This document shows positions 5,607 through 54,057 of a stretch of DNA of 64,000 nt, in pieces. The DNA is from a virus. Made by a program: the position numbers and the translations under genes. The notes below the pieces were generated by a model that did no database searches, was not told where the DNA came from, and saw only the letters and a list, made by a program, of their open reading frames with translations. The stretch is taken from positions 61,115 to 125,114 of the IMG/VR virus record IMGVR_UViG_3300042691_032880. The stretch is one strand, 5' to 3'. Position 1 is the stretch's first letter. Every line of letters starts with the position of its first letter.

Positions 5607-6734
5607 TCAATAGTGGAATGGATGTGAAGGATACGGACCCCTCACATTTTTGAATCCTCCATACCAAGCATAGCTGTTAAACATGTTATAGTACTTTGCA
5701 TACATCGCCTTGCGGTTCTTCTCCCACATGCGTTTCATCTCTCCATAGTCTGGAGTATTGATGAAGCTGAGTGCATTGGTACGGGTAATCATCAATTTGG
5801 ATTGAACCAATTGAAGTTTTTGTGCAACCGTAGGTTCCCCGTTCATGAACAGGTTTTCCAGAATACGCTCTTTCAATGCATACTCATAATATTCATTTAC
5901 GGTAGGATGATCCAAGACAAGCAAGTTGCCTTCATCATCTTCCATCAAGGATTCATAGTTTATGTAAACCCGTCCTTCTTTGAAATTAATTGTATGAATA
6001 AATCCGTCCTTGATTTTCATTCGGTAGTTGTATCCACCTACGTTTGCAAGATTGCACTCGGGTTCTCCATAGTTGTATGGAATGATTTCAATAGGAACAG
6101 GTCTTGGAAACTCCCTTATGAGTCCGGGTCTATTTTCAACAATTTTGCAACCATCAGGACAATTATCAAGACTGATGCTGCAGTTACCAACAATATTTGC
6201 TGCGGCAATAATAGTAATGCGCGCAGCATTCCAGGTTTCAAAAACCTTGACTTTGATTTGGTTTTCGTTGAGGATGACGTATTCAAAGTTGACATAATCT
6301 TTTTCCGAGTTTTGAACCTTGATTACCAAATCTGTGGAACCAAGATTATGGGTTACGATATTCCATCCTTCACCCAAGTCTGCAACCTGGATCAAAGGAC
6401 GTGCGTTTACAATCTCAGCAAGTTTGACCATTTGATCATACATGGTCTCCATCTGCGATTGTGTACATGAAGTATACGTCTCGTTAGCAACTCCGCATAG
6501 CATTGCAAAGTTCATGACATAAAAATCAGCAGGCAGTTTTCCTTTTCCGTTGTGTACATCTATCAGTTTACCCCTGCTTGGATTTATCTTCAAACCGAGT
6601 TCATAATTGACTCTGATAGCAACTTTCAACAATTCCTGAGGATTCAGAAAGTTGTCTTGGTCAAATGTGTAAAGGTCGCTTCTGACCGAGTTCATCAGGT
6701 CATCGAAGGTCCTGTATTGGAGTTCGGTCTTCAT
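5607..6734 (-). CDS. Tail adaptor/ring-type structural protein with HNLG domain
   Basis: A 375-residue protein whose helical N-terminus and C-terminus resemble portal-ring/adaptor (tail tubular) proteins of short-tailed phages. Residues about 120-175 form a separate small module: W.I.THNLGSTDLVIKV, then an NEN.IKV.F strand and an RITIIAAAN strand. This HNLG beta-sandwich module is known from tail fibre and tail proteins of other phages and is here inserted into an adaptor-like protein. The gene overlaps its upstream neighbour by four bases and is six bases from the muzzle-type gene, so the three are probably co-translated tail parts. Confidence 0.6.
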   Translation of the reverse strand: MKTELQYRTFDDLMNSVRSDLYTFDQDNFLNPQELLKVAIRVNYELGLKINPSRGKLIDVHNGKGKLPADFYVMNFAMLCGVANETYTSCTQSQMETMYDQMVKLAEIVNARPLIQVADLGEGWNIVTHNLGSTDLVIKVQNSEKDYVNFEYVILNENQIKVKVFETWNAARITIIAAANIVGNCSISLDNCPDGCKIVENRPGLIREFPRPVPIEIIPYNYGEPECNLANVGGYNYRMKIKDGFIHTINFKEGRVYINYESLMEDDEGNLLVLDHPTVNEYYEYALKERILENLFMNGEPTVAQKLQLVQSKLMITRTNALSFINTPDYGEMKRMWEKNRKAMYAKYYNMFNSYAWYGGFKNVRGPYPSHPFHY

Positions 6735-11582: not shown

Positions 11583-11972
11583 TTATTTATCAGCGTTATA
11601 TACTTCCTCAGAAGGCTGATTTGTAAAGTAAGTACGAAGAACTAGGTTAATGGTAATCATGAACATTCCAATCATGTTGGCATTTACTCCACATGCCTGG
11701 AATACTTGGTTCTCCAGGAAGTAATCAGTGATCATCAAACCTGCAGCCACCACGTTTGTCCAGAACATAGTCTTGTCTTGGGACATGCGGGTAACAGTAA
11801 TAGGTTGTGATGACGCAAACTTCTGGAGGATTGCTGTCAACGCAAAGCTGATGAACATGGCAATCTGAGGATTCATGAATCCAAACTGACCATACTGAGC
11901 GACAAGAATTGACAATGCTGCCAAGATCTGTACCCATACGATCTTTGATTTGAGAAATGGTACTGCGTTCAT
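11583..11972 (-). CDS. Holin-like membrane protein
   Basis: A 129-residue protein with three or so hydrophobic segments (about 10-30, 35-52, 72-110) separated by short charged turns and a hydrophilic tail ending EEVYNADK. Size and topology fit a phage holin that permeabilises the inner membrane to release the GH24 endolysin encoded at 7408-7938. No family signature was recognised. It directly follows two exported-protein genes and ends at a terminator. Confidence 0.6.
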   Translation of the reverse strand: MNAVPFLKSKIVWVQILAALSILVAQYGQFGFMNPQIAMFISFALTAILQKFASSQPITVTRMSQDKTMFWTNVVAAGLMITDYFLENQVFQACGVNANMIGMFMITINLVLRTYFTNQPSEEVYNADK

Positions 11973-29680: not shown

Positions 29681-30265
29681 TTAGAGGTAATCTTTCATTT
29701 CGTGGTCCAAAAGACGCATCGCAATCTTGTCCTCACCAAATGATTCCAACTGGTCTAACCAGTTCTGAAGCTTGCTGAGTTCTTCCACTTGTTCCTTAAC
29801 ATACTGTAAACCAAGCTGATAAAGCATGTGGTCAGACATCTCCAAAGCATGGGAAGATAAGTCCTTGGTCTGGTTGGTAATATCCACTTCATGAGCATGT
29901 GAATCCTTGATAATCTGGGGAAGTCCGCTGAAATCCTGTGGAGGTTCTTTCAATGCGGGTGTTTTTGGTTGAATACCAAGACTAAGAAGGTACTCGCGCG
30001 CCCAGTCCGCGTGCGCGTGTTCCTCCGTAGAATACTTCTTCCAGAGTTTGGCAGCATTCACATATCCCTTATCCTCCAACCACATGGACATGGCAAGGTA
30101 GATACGAGAACTGTATTCCTCCTGCTCAATCCTGTAGTTCAAATACTCAACGCACTTATCTGTGATAAGAGGATTCTTCTTAGACGCAGGTTTCGATTCC
30201 GCCTTTTCAGAAGATTCAGATTCCCCTCTTTTCAGGGTTCTTTTCAAGTTTACTTCTTCAGCCAT
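29681..30265 (-). CDS. Ferritin (non-haem, FtnA-like)
   Basis: A 194-residue protein whose residues 33-185 form a four-helix ferritin. Helix A has QEEYSSRIYLAMSMWLEDKG; ferroxidase ligands are visible as Glu49, Glu82 and His85 (EEHAH), Glu126 and Gln159 (YVKEQVEE), and Glu162 could serve the third site. The resemblance is to bacterial FtnA-type ferritins, not Dps. It should oxidise and store iron. The first 30 residues are an extra charged tail (Lys/Glu/Ser-rich) absent from ordinary ferritins. The gene sits inside the virion operon, overlapping the stop of the ring-like protein gene, so late expression and possibly packaging are inferred. Confidence 0.9.
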   Translation of the reverse strand: MAEEVNLKRTLKRGESESSEKAESKPASKKNPLITDKCVEYLNYRIEQEEYSSRIYLAMSMWLEDKGYVNAAKLWKKYSTEEHAHADWAREYLLSLGIQPKTPALKEPPQDFSGLPQIIKDSHAHEVDITNQTKDLSSHALEMSDHMLYQLGLQYVKEQVEELSKLQNWLDQLESFGEDKIAMRLLDHEMKDYL

Positions 30266-50245: not shown

Positions 50246-50454
50246 TTCCCATATACAGAATCCATTGTATTAGAAGATGTGTGGGGGTCCCTGCAGTTGG
50301 TCCCCCCGCCAGCGGTAATCAGAGGGGTACCCCCCACCTTTCCTAGGAGTCGACTGAAAACCAGCTGACGAAAGAAAAAAAACTCCAGCGAGGAGAAGAC
50401 TCAGTACGCTCGCTGCGCTCGCTACTCTTCCTTCTTCACATCATATCATTTACT
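50246..50454 (+). other. Structured intergenic region with palindromes
   Basis: Non-coding, with a GTGGGGG/CCCCCCAC outer helix (about 50281-50338), an inner GGGGG/CCCCC hairpin, a GGGGTACCCC palindrome and an AGTCGACT palindrome near 50347. It holds repeat copy 1. A terminator for the phosphoesterase operon is possible, but no T-run was seen. Confidence 0.4.
50406..50423 (+). repeat. GC-rich repeat, copy 1
   Basis: ACGCTCGCTGCGCTCGCT, followed by a TTCTTCACATCATATC stretch and an ATG at 50455. Copies at 50645, 51242 and 51389. Confidence 0.7.
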
Positions 50455-50586
50455 ATGAGCTACTCTCAGTACTCTTCAGTCCTGCTAGCGTGTGGTCAAG
50501 TCTTCATTGGACTTGGTCATACCCTATATGCAGCAGAACAAGACGCATACGCAATGTATCGCGCTTGGTTAGCGGAACTCCGCTGA
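50455..50586 (+). CDS. Small ORF (43 aa), uncertain
   Basis: A 43-residue frame (MSYSQYSSVLLACGQVF...) starts at the ATG that ends the repeat-associated leader and ends at TGA 50586. The sequence has no known match. It is listed because its start has the same upstream block as the 150-residue gene at 50694. The frame could equally be chance. Confidence 0.3.
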   Translation: MSYSQYSSVLLACGQVFIGLGHTLYAAEQDAYAMYRAWLAELR

Positions 50587-50644
50587 TATGCCGCATCGGA
50601 CGCCTCACTCCGTCGAAGTATAGTACGCGGAGTCAGGACTGTAC

Positions 50645-50665
50645 ACGCTCGCTGCGCTCGCTGCA
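50645..50665 (+). repeat. GC-rich repeat, copy 2
   Basis: ACGCTCGCTGCGCTCGCTG core followed by CA, then a TTCTTTCTTCACATCACATC block ending 49 bases after the copy start at the ATG 50694. The block resembles the one after copy 1. Confidence 0.7.
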
Positions 50666-50693
50666 GTTCTTTCTTCACATCACATCGTATACT

Positions 50694-51146
50694 ATGGACA
50701 CAATGTTCTCCCTTGAGACGCACCCACGCAAAGCCGTGGCTGTGTACTCCGTGTCGCTGAACGAAATCAGCAAGAACGAAGAACTGTACGATGTCTTCGT
50801 TGAGTGCGTGGAAAACGACGCTGCGAAAAAAGCCGATTGGTTGGCTAAAAATCCCGGTCGCAATCCTCTCAAACCAAACTATTGGATTGACGAGGATACG
50901 CAAAAGGCGTTCATTCGCGTAGACATCATCCCTTCGGACGGTGTTTGGGCGAAAGAAACAATCGGTGAGGTGGAAACCTCCTCTGCAGGTAATCTGTACA
51001 TCCGATTGGAACCTCTCTACACTCCCCAAGAACTTGCTTCTGTTTCAGCAGTTCGTAGGGAACAACGAGACGCCAAACGCGCACTTGCATCACGACCTGC
51101 ATCACCTGCAAAAGCAGTCGTGAATCCCGAAGACGCAAAGTTCTAA
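50694..51146 (+). CDS. Hypothetical protein (150 aa) downstream of repeat leader
   Basis: Start chosen at ATG 50694, right after the repeat-leader block; a longer in-frame frame from 50490 crosses the repeat and is unlikely. The protein has a mixed fold with VAVYSVSLNEISKNEELYDVF near the N-terminus and a Pro/Ala-rich C-terminal tail ending ASPAKAVVNPEDAKF. This tail resembles the end of the 127-residue protein at 51522-51905 (ASRP.P..A..PKF), so the two may share a partner or processing signal. No function known. Confidence 0.55.
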   Translation: MDTMFSLETHPRKAVAVYSVSLNEISKNEELYDVFVECVENDAAKKADWLAKNPGRNPLKPNYWIDEDTQKAFIRVDIIPSDGVWAKETIGEVETSSAGNLYIRLEPLYTPQELASVSAVRREQRDAKRALASRPASPAKAVVNPEDAKF

Positions 51147-51241
51147 TCGGGAACGCATACTCTGCAACTCTCTGCATATCAGGAGAGTTGCGGAGTCATC
51201 GCGTCACCTACCTCGAGGAGACTCGAGGTGAGGTGCAAAGG

Positions 51242-51268
51242 ACGCTCACTGCGTTCGCTGCATTTCCT
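51242..51268 (+). repeat. GC-rich repeat, copy 3 (diverged)
   Basis: ACGCTCACTGCGTTCGCTG core followed by CATTTCCT; two differences from the other copies. Confidence 0.65.
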
Positions 51269-51388
51269 ACTCCACAACGACGTGGACACCAGGTGATTGT
51301 CCCCACCTTTGTCCAAGGTAATTGTCCTCGGGATAGACGGTCAAAAATATATTTCCACCATGGAAAAGGAAAAGGAAAGGACCACATT

Positions 51389-51415
51389 ACGCTCGCTGCG
51401 CTCGCTGCATTTCCT
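51389..51415 (+). repeat. GC-rich repeat, copy 4
   Basis: ACGCTCGCTGCGCTCGCTG core followed by CATTTCCT as in copy 3. Confidence 0.7.
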
Positions 51416-51521
51416 GCTCCGCATCTTACCATTCGCACCTGCACCAAAGGAAAGGTGTAAGTTATCACGGAAGTAATTCACAATCAATTTAATATTAACA
51501 ATTTAAAAAAACCAAAACAAC

Positions 51522-51905
51522 ATGAAAGCAGTATTGATCAATCAGTACACAACAGTATCAAAGACCACAGGTAATCGCGTGGAAATGAGTGTTTACGAAA
51601 TCGTTGAAGGAACTCAACAAGAGTTGGAAGACTATTGCGATTTCGAAACAGCAAGGGGTTATTACAAAGAAACCGATGAAGGTAATCCCATATTCCAAAC
51701 CATCGGTGACCTGGGTAACACCATTGAAGTACGACTTGGTAAAAAGAAAGATGCCAATGGTAACCTGGTAGAGGCTTATCGCGGTATTGCAAGCGAAGAC
51801 TGGCGTTTGAAGAAGTCTATCGTCCGCGAACAGATCTCCGCTCCTGCTCCTAGGGTGATTGCATCACGTCCTGTACCAAAAACAGCAGGTGAACCAAAGT
51901 TTTAA
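51522..51905 (+). CDS. Conserved phage protein (127 aa)
   Basis: A 127-residue protein preceded by an A-rich start region. The pattern KAVLINQYTTVSKTTGNRV.M.VYEIVEGT, GYYKETDEGNPIF and GDLGNTIEVRLGKK recurs in small single-domain proteins of Bacteroidota phages that may bind nucleic acid, but I know no proven role. The Pro-rich tail ends GEPKF. It is followed at once by a strong terminator. Confidence 0.6.
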   Translation: MKAVLINQYTTVSKTTGNRVEMSVYEIVEGTQQELEDYCDFETARGYYKETDEGNPIFQTIGDLGNTIEVRLGKKKDANGNLVEAYRGIASEDWRLKKSIVREQISAPAPRVIASRPVPKTAGEPKF

Positions 51906-51959: not shown

Positions 51960-52027
51960 CTACATTTATTGTTCTCTTACTTTGGAACAAAAAAGCGTGC
52001 CACTAGATAACCATTCTTGGTTGTCAG

Positions 52028-52085
52028 GACTATGATGTCTAATGGTTAGACGTATAGAGTACGGGTTCGATTCCCGTCATAGTCC
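52028..52085 (+). ncRNA. tRNA-like element lacking an anticodon arm
   Basis: A seven-pair acceptor-like stem (GACTATG 52028-52034 with CATAGTC 52078-52084), a D-arm (GTCT/AGAC with loop AATGGTT), and a canonical T-arm (ACGGG/CCCGT with loop TTCGATT, 52061-52077). Only nine bases (52052-52060) lie where an anticodon arm and variable loop should be, so the total is 58 bases. It is directly preceded by a GATAACCA/TGGTTGTC hairpin (52007-52026). It cannot decode, but could be a substrate for tRNA-maturation enzymes or mimic the tRNA acceptor domain. Confidence 0.7.
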
Positions 52086-52316
52086 CTTATTAATTGTTCA
52101 TAGTAGTCACCCGAAATCCATGGGGACAGTTTACAGCCGACCTTGAGTAAGTCGGTCACGTTTACATAAACTACCAACTCATATACTATTTGCTGGGATC
52201 CAGTCCCTGCAAACACAAGGGTCGCAACCTTGGGGGTAAAGCGAGGAGCCGTTTGGATGACAACATTGTTTAGCAATGATAACTCCATATGGATAAAACT
52301 CCTCGCTCAACCTTTG
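52086..52316 (+). promoter_or_regulatory. Folded leader before S10-like gene
   Basis: No gene lies here. Helices seen: CCGAC/GTCGG (about 52129-52147), TTTGC-GGGA/TCCC-GCAAA (about 52188-52213), CAAGG/CCTTG (about 52216-52232), and a nine-pair AGCGAGGAG (52240-52248) with CTCCTCGCT (52299-52307) closing a domain containing CATTG/CAATG and TCCATATGGA hairpins. The domain ends about ten bases before the start codon, a good place for translational control. Confidence 0.6.
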
Positions 52317-52574
52317 ATGATGACTATGAATAACTCTGAATACCTAGAGTTTGTATTGGAGTCTAACTCCAATAAGAAACTCGACGCTCTTTGTGATGCG
52401 ATTATCCGCTGCATTAAAAGTACTGGTGGCGTTAAAAGTGGTCCCATTCCTTTTAAGAACAAGAGGATAATCTATTGCTATGGACCTACTGCTCGTACCA
52501 TTGACTCCATTATGGCTCTTCGTCAACCCGCCAAAGTCAAGGTAGAAGTTAATATCCTGGAGCGTAAATCCTAA
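52317..52574 (+). CDS. S10/NusE-like protein without ribosome-binding loop
   Basis: An 85-residue protein; start among ATGs at 52317, 52320 or 52326. It reads like ribosomal protein S10: LEFVLESNSNKKLDALCDAI, then CIKSTGGVKSGPIPFKNK (compare S10 TAKRTGAQVRGPIPLPTRK) and RTIDSIMALRQPAKVKVEVNIL (compare KTVDALMRL..AAGVDVQISL). Between these blocks only RIIYCYGPTA is present, where S10 has about twenty more residues forming the extended loop that enters the 30S head. This loop is dispensable for the NusB/antitermination role of S10 (NusE). I infer an antitermination or RNA-binding function instead of a ribosomal one. Confidence 0.75.
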   Translation: MMTMNNSEYLEFVLESNSNKKLDALCDAIIRCIKSTGGVKSGPIPFKNKRIIYCYGPTARTIDSIMALRQPAKVKVEVNILERKS

Positions 52575-52834
52575 TGAAAAGGTCAGTCGGTGCTGAAATG
52601 ACTGTGAAGCATCACTTTAACTTTACAACCCAACAAACAAGAAGAATAGAGTAACTCTGAAGCTGTCCAATTAGTAAGAGGTATGGTAAGTCTTCTATCA
52701 AAGGAAATATTGCATTAAAGCCTTTGGTATAATTATCAATTCAGTAGTTGATGCGACAACTAGATTGGATATAGTTCAGGAGATAGAAAAAAGCCTGAAT
52801 TTTCATTTGACTAACCCCTTAAACCCCTTATAAG
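52575..52834 (+). other. Structured intergenic region
   Basis: No credible gene. It contains a CAGTC/GACTG hairpin near 52583 and an AATTCAG...CTGAATT domain (about 52737-52802) enclosing AGTTG/CAACT. It may be the 3' part of the S10-like transcript or a separate small RNA. The TAAACCCCTTATAAG tract precedes the next ATG. Confidence 0.45.
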
Positions 52835-53278: not shown

Positions 53279-54057
53279 TCCCTAATGCACTTGGTTGTAA
53301 TCACACAGAGCGTCTCCTCACTACCCATAGGTTATGGGTGCTGCATAAAAAGCAGGTAGTAAAGTGGGTAATGCCACAGGATGTCCTGATAGGTAAGATG
53401 TGATGAATATTGATCTTGAGTACAATCAATAACAACTAAGCGCATTTCATTTGACCAAGGTGGTACTTCTCTAACGACAGGTACCAGTATGGATAACCAG
53501 GATAGCACGTCTGCCACTGTATAGCTATTCCTAATAAGAGGTTCGAGTCCTCCCTTGGTCACCAATCCCAATGCACTAACTCACCTCGCAAGGGTGAGCA
53601 GTTGTAATAACTAGAAAACTTTATAGAGTATAAGCGGGTAGACAAATCTATGCTACGCAATTAGCTACCACCTAAACTGCAGTATATTGCAAGATGCAGG
53701 TAATGGACACTGAGGTTGCTCTCGGGGATTTTGTCCTATAAAGATGTTATTACAACTGAGTGCAAAGGGTAATGAAACGTTCTAGGATTGTAACCTGGAT
53801 AGTCCGCCACCAGATGATAAGAAGCGAGGTCACTCTCGTAGGGGTATTTTGCCATTAGATTAAATGAGCCAGGATTGATGTTCCTGCACATCAGTGATCA
53901 GAGGCCTTTCGAGGCATAGTATCCAGTATGAACACATCGCGCTGATACACAAGGTCGTAGTTGAGATAAGGACAGGATGGTAATATCGTATGATGCTCCT
54001 GTTACTACGACCGAGTGTATTGGTATTGCATTGACCACAACTTAAAACCCTTTATAA
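53279..54057 (+). ncRNA. Large ornate structured RNA (GOLLD/ROOL-like candidate)
   Basis: 779 bases without a credible gene, densely foldable. Domain A: AATGCACTTGGTTGT (53284-53298) with ACAACTAAGCGCATT (53432-53446), fifteen positions with one GU and one mismatch, enclosing hairpins such as ACCCATA/TATGGGT, CTGC/GCAG, ATTGAT/ATCAAT and ATCACA/TGTGAT. Then a tRNA-like unit with CCA. Domain C: GCACT + AGTTGTAATAAC (about 53573-53612) with GTTATTACAACT + AGTGC (about 53746-53763). Domain D: GGTCGTAGT/ACTACGACC (about 53953-54012) and a GCCT-TTCG-AGGC hairpin. Size, density and tRNA association recall GOLLD/ROOL RNAs; family membership is unproven. Confidence 0.65.
53453..53564 (+). ncRNA. tRNA-like element with encoded CCA, enlarged middle
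   Basis: GACCAAG (53453-53459) pairs with CTTGGTC (53554-53560), followed by A and an encoded CCA. A T-arm GAGG-TTCGAGT-CCTC (53538-53552) is canonical. The 78 bases between acceptor and T-arm do not fold as D- plus anticodon arm; GGTAC/GTACC and GGATAGC/GCTATTCC helices are seen instead. It lies inside the large structured RNA, so it may be a processing signal or a tRNA carrying an insertion. Confidence 0.55.

Follow-up and report, generated by a model that had tools for sequence, protein, structure and literature searches.

The ribosomal protein S10 is a textbook case of moonlighting, and its two jobs have so far been separated by artificial deletion of the loop that is inserted into the ribosome. 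In its role as the transcription helper NusE it belongs to the antitermination complex of phage lambda, and the NusB-S10 pair acts on boxA and also in translational control in the suhB 5′ leader (PMC10931766). Loop-less NusE complexed with NusB binds RNA polymerase (RNAP) through a surface that lies opposite the NusB interface and overlaps the NusG-CTD site (PMC4642336). Also, RNAP can be modified directly by a phage RNA made up of two stem-loops (PMC9378689). The surveys of viral ribosomal proteins that were searched, PMC6375957 and PMC7162821 among them, make no mention of uS10 in their main texts. A literature search for phage-encoded uS10 likewise found no paper. To our knowledge, no leader that is autoregulated by S10 itself has been described.

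The locus presented here lies in a 125,114-bp virus record of IMG/VR, the last 64 kb of which (64,000 nucleotides) is the stretch of DNA that was analysed, called the window below. The phage origin claimed in the initial annotation is borne out by this record, in which PHROG phage families could be assigned to a terminase, a portal and a major head protein, the last being similar to that of Cellulophaga phages phi17:2/phi4:1 and Leptolyngbya phage Lbo-JY46. In the remaining half of this record are DNA polymerase, DnaB-like helicase, Sak4-like and helicase genes and, on its minus strand, ORFs of 2,293 and 3,987 aa. We read the source as a crAss-like phage, and from the Cellulophaga relatives its host would be a member of the Bacteroidota. 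The S10-like gene is in a plus-strand arm that starts after the minus-strand structural genes. It may be noted that inside the structural gene block (29681-30265, minus strand) a putative ferritin-like protein, EEYSSRIYLAMSMWLEDKG...EEHAHADWAREYL, was picked out by eye.

A phage uS10/NusE homolog without the ribosome loop

52326..52574, plus strand: loop-less uS10/NusE-like ORF, 82 aa plus stop, identified by PF00338 and by AlphaFold2 with Foldseek (3d3b), its start chosen by alignment and spacing

The open frame at 52317-52574 that had been annotated initially was confirmed in the window, but its start codon is probably the ATG at 52326 (82 aa) rather than the one at 52317 (85 aa), since the former agrees with the N-termini of the relatives in the alignment and stands 18 nt from the foot of the RNA stem in front of it, in line with the 9-18 nt seen in the relatives. 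Against Pfam PF00338 (Ribosomal_S10) the ORF scores 29.8 bits (E=7.6e-7), above the gathering score of 21.2, as do two of the relatives with 25.6 and 23.7 bits. The scores of the window ORF against the NCBIfam equivalogs fall below their cut-offs (33.6 against 85 bits for NF001861 and 28.1 against 72.75 for TIGR01049). The homology to uS10 is far above what chance would give: a profile of the seven members described below matched S10 chains of the PDB with E down to 2.6e-12, and phmmer aligned dozens of solved S10 chains, in a single stretch in the case of loop-deleted NusE (2mew, 3r2c/d, 2kvq/3d3b). Both S10 core blocks are kept (GPIPFKNKR and TIDSIMALR...VKVEV). This confirms the product as a basic uS10/NusE homolog of about 82 residues, and the identity and core blocks first read from the letters hold.

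On aligning the protein with bacterial S10, the ribosome-inserted loop is seen as a clean 26-residue gap between GPIPFK and NKRII, which removes exactly the loop cut out in laboratory NusE-delta constructs. The initial annotation was thus right about the loss of the loop, but the replacement by about ten residues that it described is not there. The AlphaFold2 model of the window protein (pLDDT 84.5, pTM 0.74) has the elements E-H-E-E-H-E, and its top Foldseek match in the PDB is 3d3b_J (E 1.5e-6, TM 0.83/0.81, rmsd 0.9 over 78 columns), an E. coli S10 engineered to lack the loop and solved in complex with NusB; the second match is the NusE:NusG-CTD structure and the fourth the NusB-NusE-boxA structure. 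The divergent member L019 was modelled as well (pLDDT 80); it has the same order of elements, and its best matches include S10 and NusE-delta chains. The S10 core fold is predicted in both, and a fold unlike S10, which the annotation had named as refuting its reading, was not obtained. Among the viral proteins of BFVD no structural match to the window protein was found at E<=0.001.

The loop-less S10 is carried by seven distinct phages, window included. Three relatives came from protein searches of IMG/VR (L001/L005/L014, 3300042295_000443; L006, 3300033067_001736; L008, 3300009158_000214) and three more, which these searches had not seen, from a scan with an 18-mer RNA hairpin motif (L053, 3300012348_000111; L043, 3300042691_016389; and L019/L049). 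The members are about 78-88 aa long and basic (pI 9.5-10.3), with F, K, L, GP, K, R and Y invariant in the alignment of the seven, and no ORF other than the S10-like one is common to all seven neighbourhoods. A further candidate found by the seed ESNSNKK (L007, IMGVR 3300037515_000041) was rejected as it has no S10 similarity by Pfam. The full-length bacterial-type S10 of MT835564/MT836236 in the phage collection was set aside as contamination; that of MT835564 sits in an S10-L3-L4 operon. Weak matches were seen to crAssphage cr118_1 and an Erwinia jumbo phage (E 4 and 0.2). Pattern scans of limited sensitivity found no loop-less S10 in bacterial genomes.

A small, diverged gene that has lost its loop may be thought of as a decaying, functionless S10 fragment. 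Yet identity among the seven falls to 22-31% with frame and core intact in all, dN is less than dS wherever an estimate of dS was possible (pairs that include the window are saturated), and the RNA leader described below is kept as well, so decay is hardly credible. It could also be argued that the phage protein substitutes host S10 in the 30S subunit and gives altered ribosomes, as has been proposed for phage bS21 and bL12, given that viruses encode ribosomal proteins and that E. coli ribosomes take up these two (PMC6375957). However, uS10 counts among the tertiary assembly proteins (PMC10931766) and not among the exchangeable ones of PMC6375957, and the loop is absent in 7/7 members, which are therefore not ribosomal uS10 orthologs by this feature. 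The loss of the loop argues against a ribosomal role, the remaining core being what bacterial NusE uses, and we regard such a replacement as very unlikely.

A leader RNA linked to the S10-like gene

52215..52307, plus strand: leader RNA element R1 (H1 and H2), present before 7/7 S10-like ORFs, from covariation, covariance model and pattern scan
52216-52220 (CAAGG) with 52228-52232 (CCTTG), plus strand: hairpin H1 of R1, loop GTCGCAA
52240-52248 (AGCGAGGAG) with 52299-52307 (CTCCTCGCT), plus strand: outer arms of the long stem H2 of R1, with an inner stem and a terminal hairpin inside

R1 was first seen upstream of the ORFs of the relatives as ACAAGGRTCRYAACCTTG followed by a long stem, the arms of which vary by phage yet stay complementary. 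It is about 100 nt long and consists of a hairpin, CAAGG-RTCRYAA-CCTTG, abutting the long covarying stem, whose foot is 9-18 nt from the S10 ATG in the seven loci (18 nt in the window, counted to 52326). Among the five closest sequences 92.6% of the cells are paired, as opposed to 30-55% when the partner is slid by 1-3 columns, and double-sided changes occur at 16/29 pairs as compared to 6.5 in shuffles. A covariance model recovers R1 in all the S10 loci, once per locus, including two that were outside the model building (E 2.8e-5 and 1.9e-4), though these two came via the hairpin sequence, which adds to their covariance scores. In 98 other loci the best matches of the model are weak, and those at E<=0.0064 are in loci fetched by the same hairpin pattern.

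The scan of IMG/VR with the 18-mer hairpin motif alone gave 58 stretches, from which 43 distinct hits, window included, were tabulated. In 6/6 of the hits whose second stem has at least 7 Watson-Crick bp an S10-like ORF follows, as against 0/37 of those where the stem is absent. Therefore, the RNA sequence pointed to the protein in genomes in which searching by protein had missed it. Most of the 58 hits are chance or other repeats, having neither the second stem nor the ORF. The RNA-rich character of the locus noted in the initial annotation is correct, and the link of the gene to RNA is stronger than a reading of the sequence alone could have given. As R1 is present in a single copy per locus and at the start codon, a regulatory leader is a better fit than an operon-wide antitermination site.

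Neither ARAGORN nor Rfam, at its gathering thresholds, calls any of the RNAs of the locus, and no Rfam 15 family matches R1, or the 3′ element described below, at E<=1. A group I intron, a riboswitch or another known RNA is unsupported, since at E<=1 Rfam reports no more than a fragment of a T arm and, at other places, two weak sRNA matches. Also, the GenBank phage collection has no match to the S10-R1 cassette.

Other RNAs around the gene

52567..52618, plus strand: 3′ element across the stop codon, a short hairpin and an H-type pseudoknot-like fold, in five of the seven loci
52584-52588 with 52600-52604 (S1) and 52589-52594 with 52608-52613 (S2), plus strand: pseudoknot-like stems of the 3′ element
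53567-53769: TGCACC RNA of the window, also at about 11800-11929 and 12530-12639 in L019, at about 5760-5876 in L001, and in most of L076-L154

In the five loci that have the 3′ element every cell is paired and 5/11 pairs are double-changed, with slid controls pairing at 27-56%. A scan of the whole collection found it in one further genome (L197, reverse strand, match start 9104), where it stands behind an unrelated ORF of about 112 aa. A specific tie to S10 is rejected on this ground; the element is therefore part of the shared RNA toolbox of these phages and not S10's own. Read-through of the stop codon at the pseudoknot was also rejected, the reading frames downstream not being conserved. 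L053 appears by eye to have a terminator-like hairpin in its place.

The TGCACC RNA is structured and very common, with the layout ATGCACCATTCTCACTTCCCAAGGGTGAGCAGTTGTAA, a variable insert and then TTACAACTGAGTGCAGAGGG. It was found in at least 120 stretches on scanning IMG/VR; the matches listed contain 93 distinct RNAs with 90 different inserts of 22-220 nt. The arms of its stem P2 covary (CTCAC/GTGAG, CCTGA/TCAGG, TCTAC/GTAGA, CTATC/GATAG), and neither Rfam nor the GenBank phage collection holds a match, so that it may represent a new class of RNA with exchangeable inserts. Dependence on S10 is rejected for this RNA, since large phage contigs without S10-like genes also carry it. In L076 (IMGVR 3300032116_000067) a Hatchet ribozyme at 5635-5767, above the Rfam gathering score, is about 1 kb from it.

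Several other structures were seen in the window. A 60-nt tRNA-like element at 52027-52086 combines an acceptor-like stem of 8 bp (GGACTATG/CATAGTCC) with a hairpin like a D arm and a perfect T arm (CGGGTTCGATTCCCG) and lacks an anticodon arm; ARAGORN does not call it and Rfam sees the T arm only. A second tRNA-like element of about 113 nt (53452-53564), also not called by ARAGORN, has an acceptor-like stem (TGACCAAGG/CCTTGGTCA), an encoded CCA, a T arm (GAGGTTCGAGTCCTC) and an unusual middle. Downstream of the S10-like gene the non-coding regions show, by eye, a diverged TGCACC-like copy (53284-53421) and a long hairpin, GGTCGTAGT/ACTACGACC (about 53950-54020). Between small ORFs at 50400-51420 the motif GCTCGCTGCGCTCGCTGC and near copies of it are repeated, and the ORFs 50490-51146 and 51522-51905 share an ASRP...KF ending, which suggests duplicated genes.

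A proposed off-ribosome role and comparison with known systems

Homology, fold, loop loss, conservation and a strict physical linkage to a covarying RNA are what we observe; antitermination, autoregulation, RNA binding and the binding of NusB, NusG or RNAP by the phage S10 are what we infer. The trimmed loop and the constant folded RNA in front suggest a phage-owned version of the transcription-helper job of S10. Our tentative reading, which we favour over the others and hold to be quite possible, is of a phage-borne uS10 paralog without the ribosome loop that acts only off the ribosome as NusE, with the R1 leader as its dedicated cis partner. The protein would be made from an mRNA with the R1 leader of about 100 nt ending 9-18 nt before the start codon, and it retains the S10 core, the part that contacts NusB, NusG-CTD and RNA polymerase in bacteria. 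During infection it may enter the Nus-type complexes that form on RNA polymerase, beside host S10 or in its place, which would favour read-through of the RNA-rich transcripts of the phage, and R1 could be a loading site, an autoregulatory leader, or both.

A narrower version, in which the phage supplies its own NusE and R1 is a new cis RNA recruiting it for antitermination or RNA processing, with host S10 dispensable, the RNA being the address and S10 the part that the phage owns, is unlikely in our estimate. Some points speak against the off-ribosome NusE reading as a whole. No recognisable NusB is encoded in the phage record, and boxA-like sites in the window are at chance level with no excess, though the motif sought may not be the boxA of the host; both go against a simple scheme of the lambda type. 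Of the E. coli S10 residues presumed to contact NusB, H15 is not kept, being N or T in the phage members, and R16 and D19 align to K and mostly D/E.

The same two null results favour an RNA-binding S10 that works on its own, making an RNP with R1 in trans or only regulating its own synthesis, its job being unrelated to NusB and termination, for example chaperoning the structured RNAs of the phage. The strict R1 linkage, the closeness of the R1 foot to the ATG, the basic charge and the RNA-rich neighbourhoods would also be accounted for. But the core that is conserved has the NusE fold and no extra part for RNA binding, and the abundant TGCACC RNA is present in many phages without an S10-like gene, which makes this alternative somewhat unlikely. 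A decoy that titrates host NusB, NusG or RNAP, and thereby blocks rRNA antitermination or transcription-translation coupling without any help to phage transcription, would use the same surfaces as the off-ribosome NusE, and NusE-delta does compete in vitro for RNAP and NusG-CTD (PMC4642336). However, it leaves the obligatory R1 leader unexplained, except as simple regulation, and we find it quite improbable.

Viruses are known to encode homologs of ribosomal proteins (bS21, bL12, bL9 and others; PMC6375957, PMC7162821), and the phage S10 is alike in this respect, except that it has no ribosome-binding part and its incorporation into ribosomes is unlikely. R1 resembles the phage RNA hairpins at the transcript of the lambda N/nut and HK022 put systems, and its two adjacent hairpins may be likened, by architecture alone, to the put RNA of about 70 nt with two stem-loops (PMC9378689). 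In contrast to these systems, no N-like protein or enriched boxA was found, and R1 is tied to the S10-like gene, at its start codon. The position and conservation of R1 also fit the autoregulatory leaders of ribosomal proteins (S15, L4, L1), which are structured and end at the start region, whereas R1 has no Rfam match and its binding by the S10-like protein is putative. R1 and its strict linkage to the protein thus offer a concrete candidate binding partner.

The closest system remains uS10/NusE itself (PF00338; loop-less NusE 3d3b, 2kvq, 3r2c), shared features being homology above the Pfam cut-off, the fold (TM 0.83, rmsd 0.9) and the missing loop. As opposed to bacterial uS10, the phage proteins have a specific SNK-x-LD motif where helix 1 begins, and the window protein scores below the NCBIfam equivalog cut-offs. 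What is new here is a naturally loop-less NusE/uS10 owned by phages, which would provide an off-ribosome NusE open to testing and a way into the transcription control of crAss-like phages. In the engineered loop-less NusE the deletion was made by hand, whereas in the phages it is natural, the gene is phage-borne and it has a dedicated RNA leader; evolution appears to have made the laboratory cut itself and to have kept it in several phages, paired with an RNA of its own.
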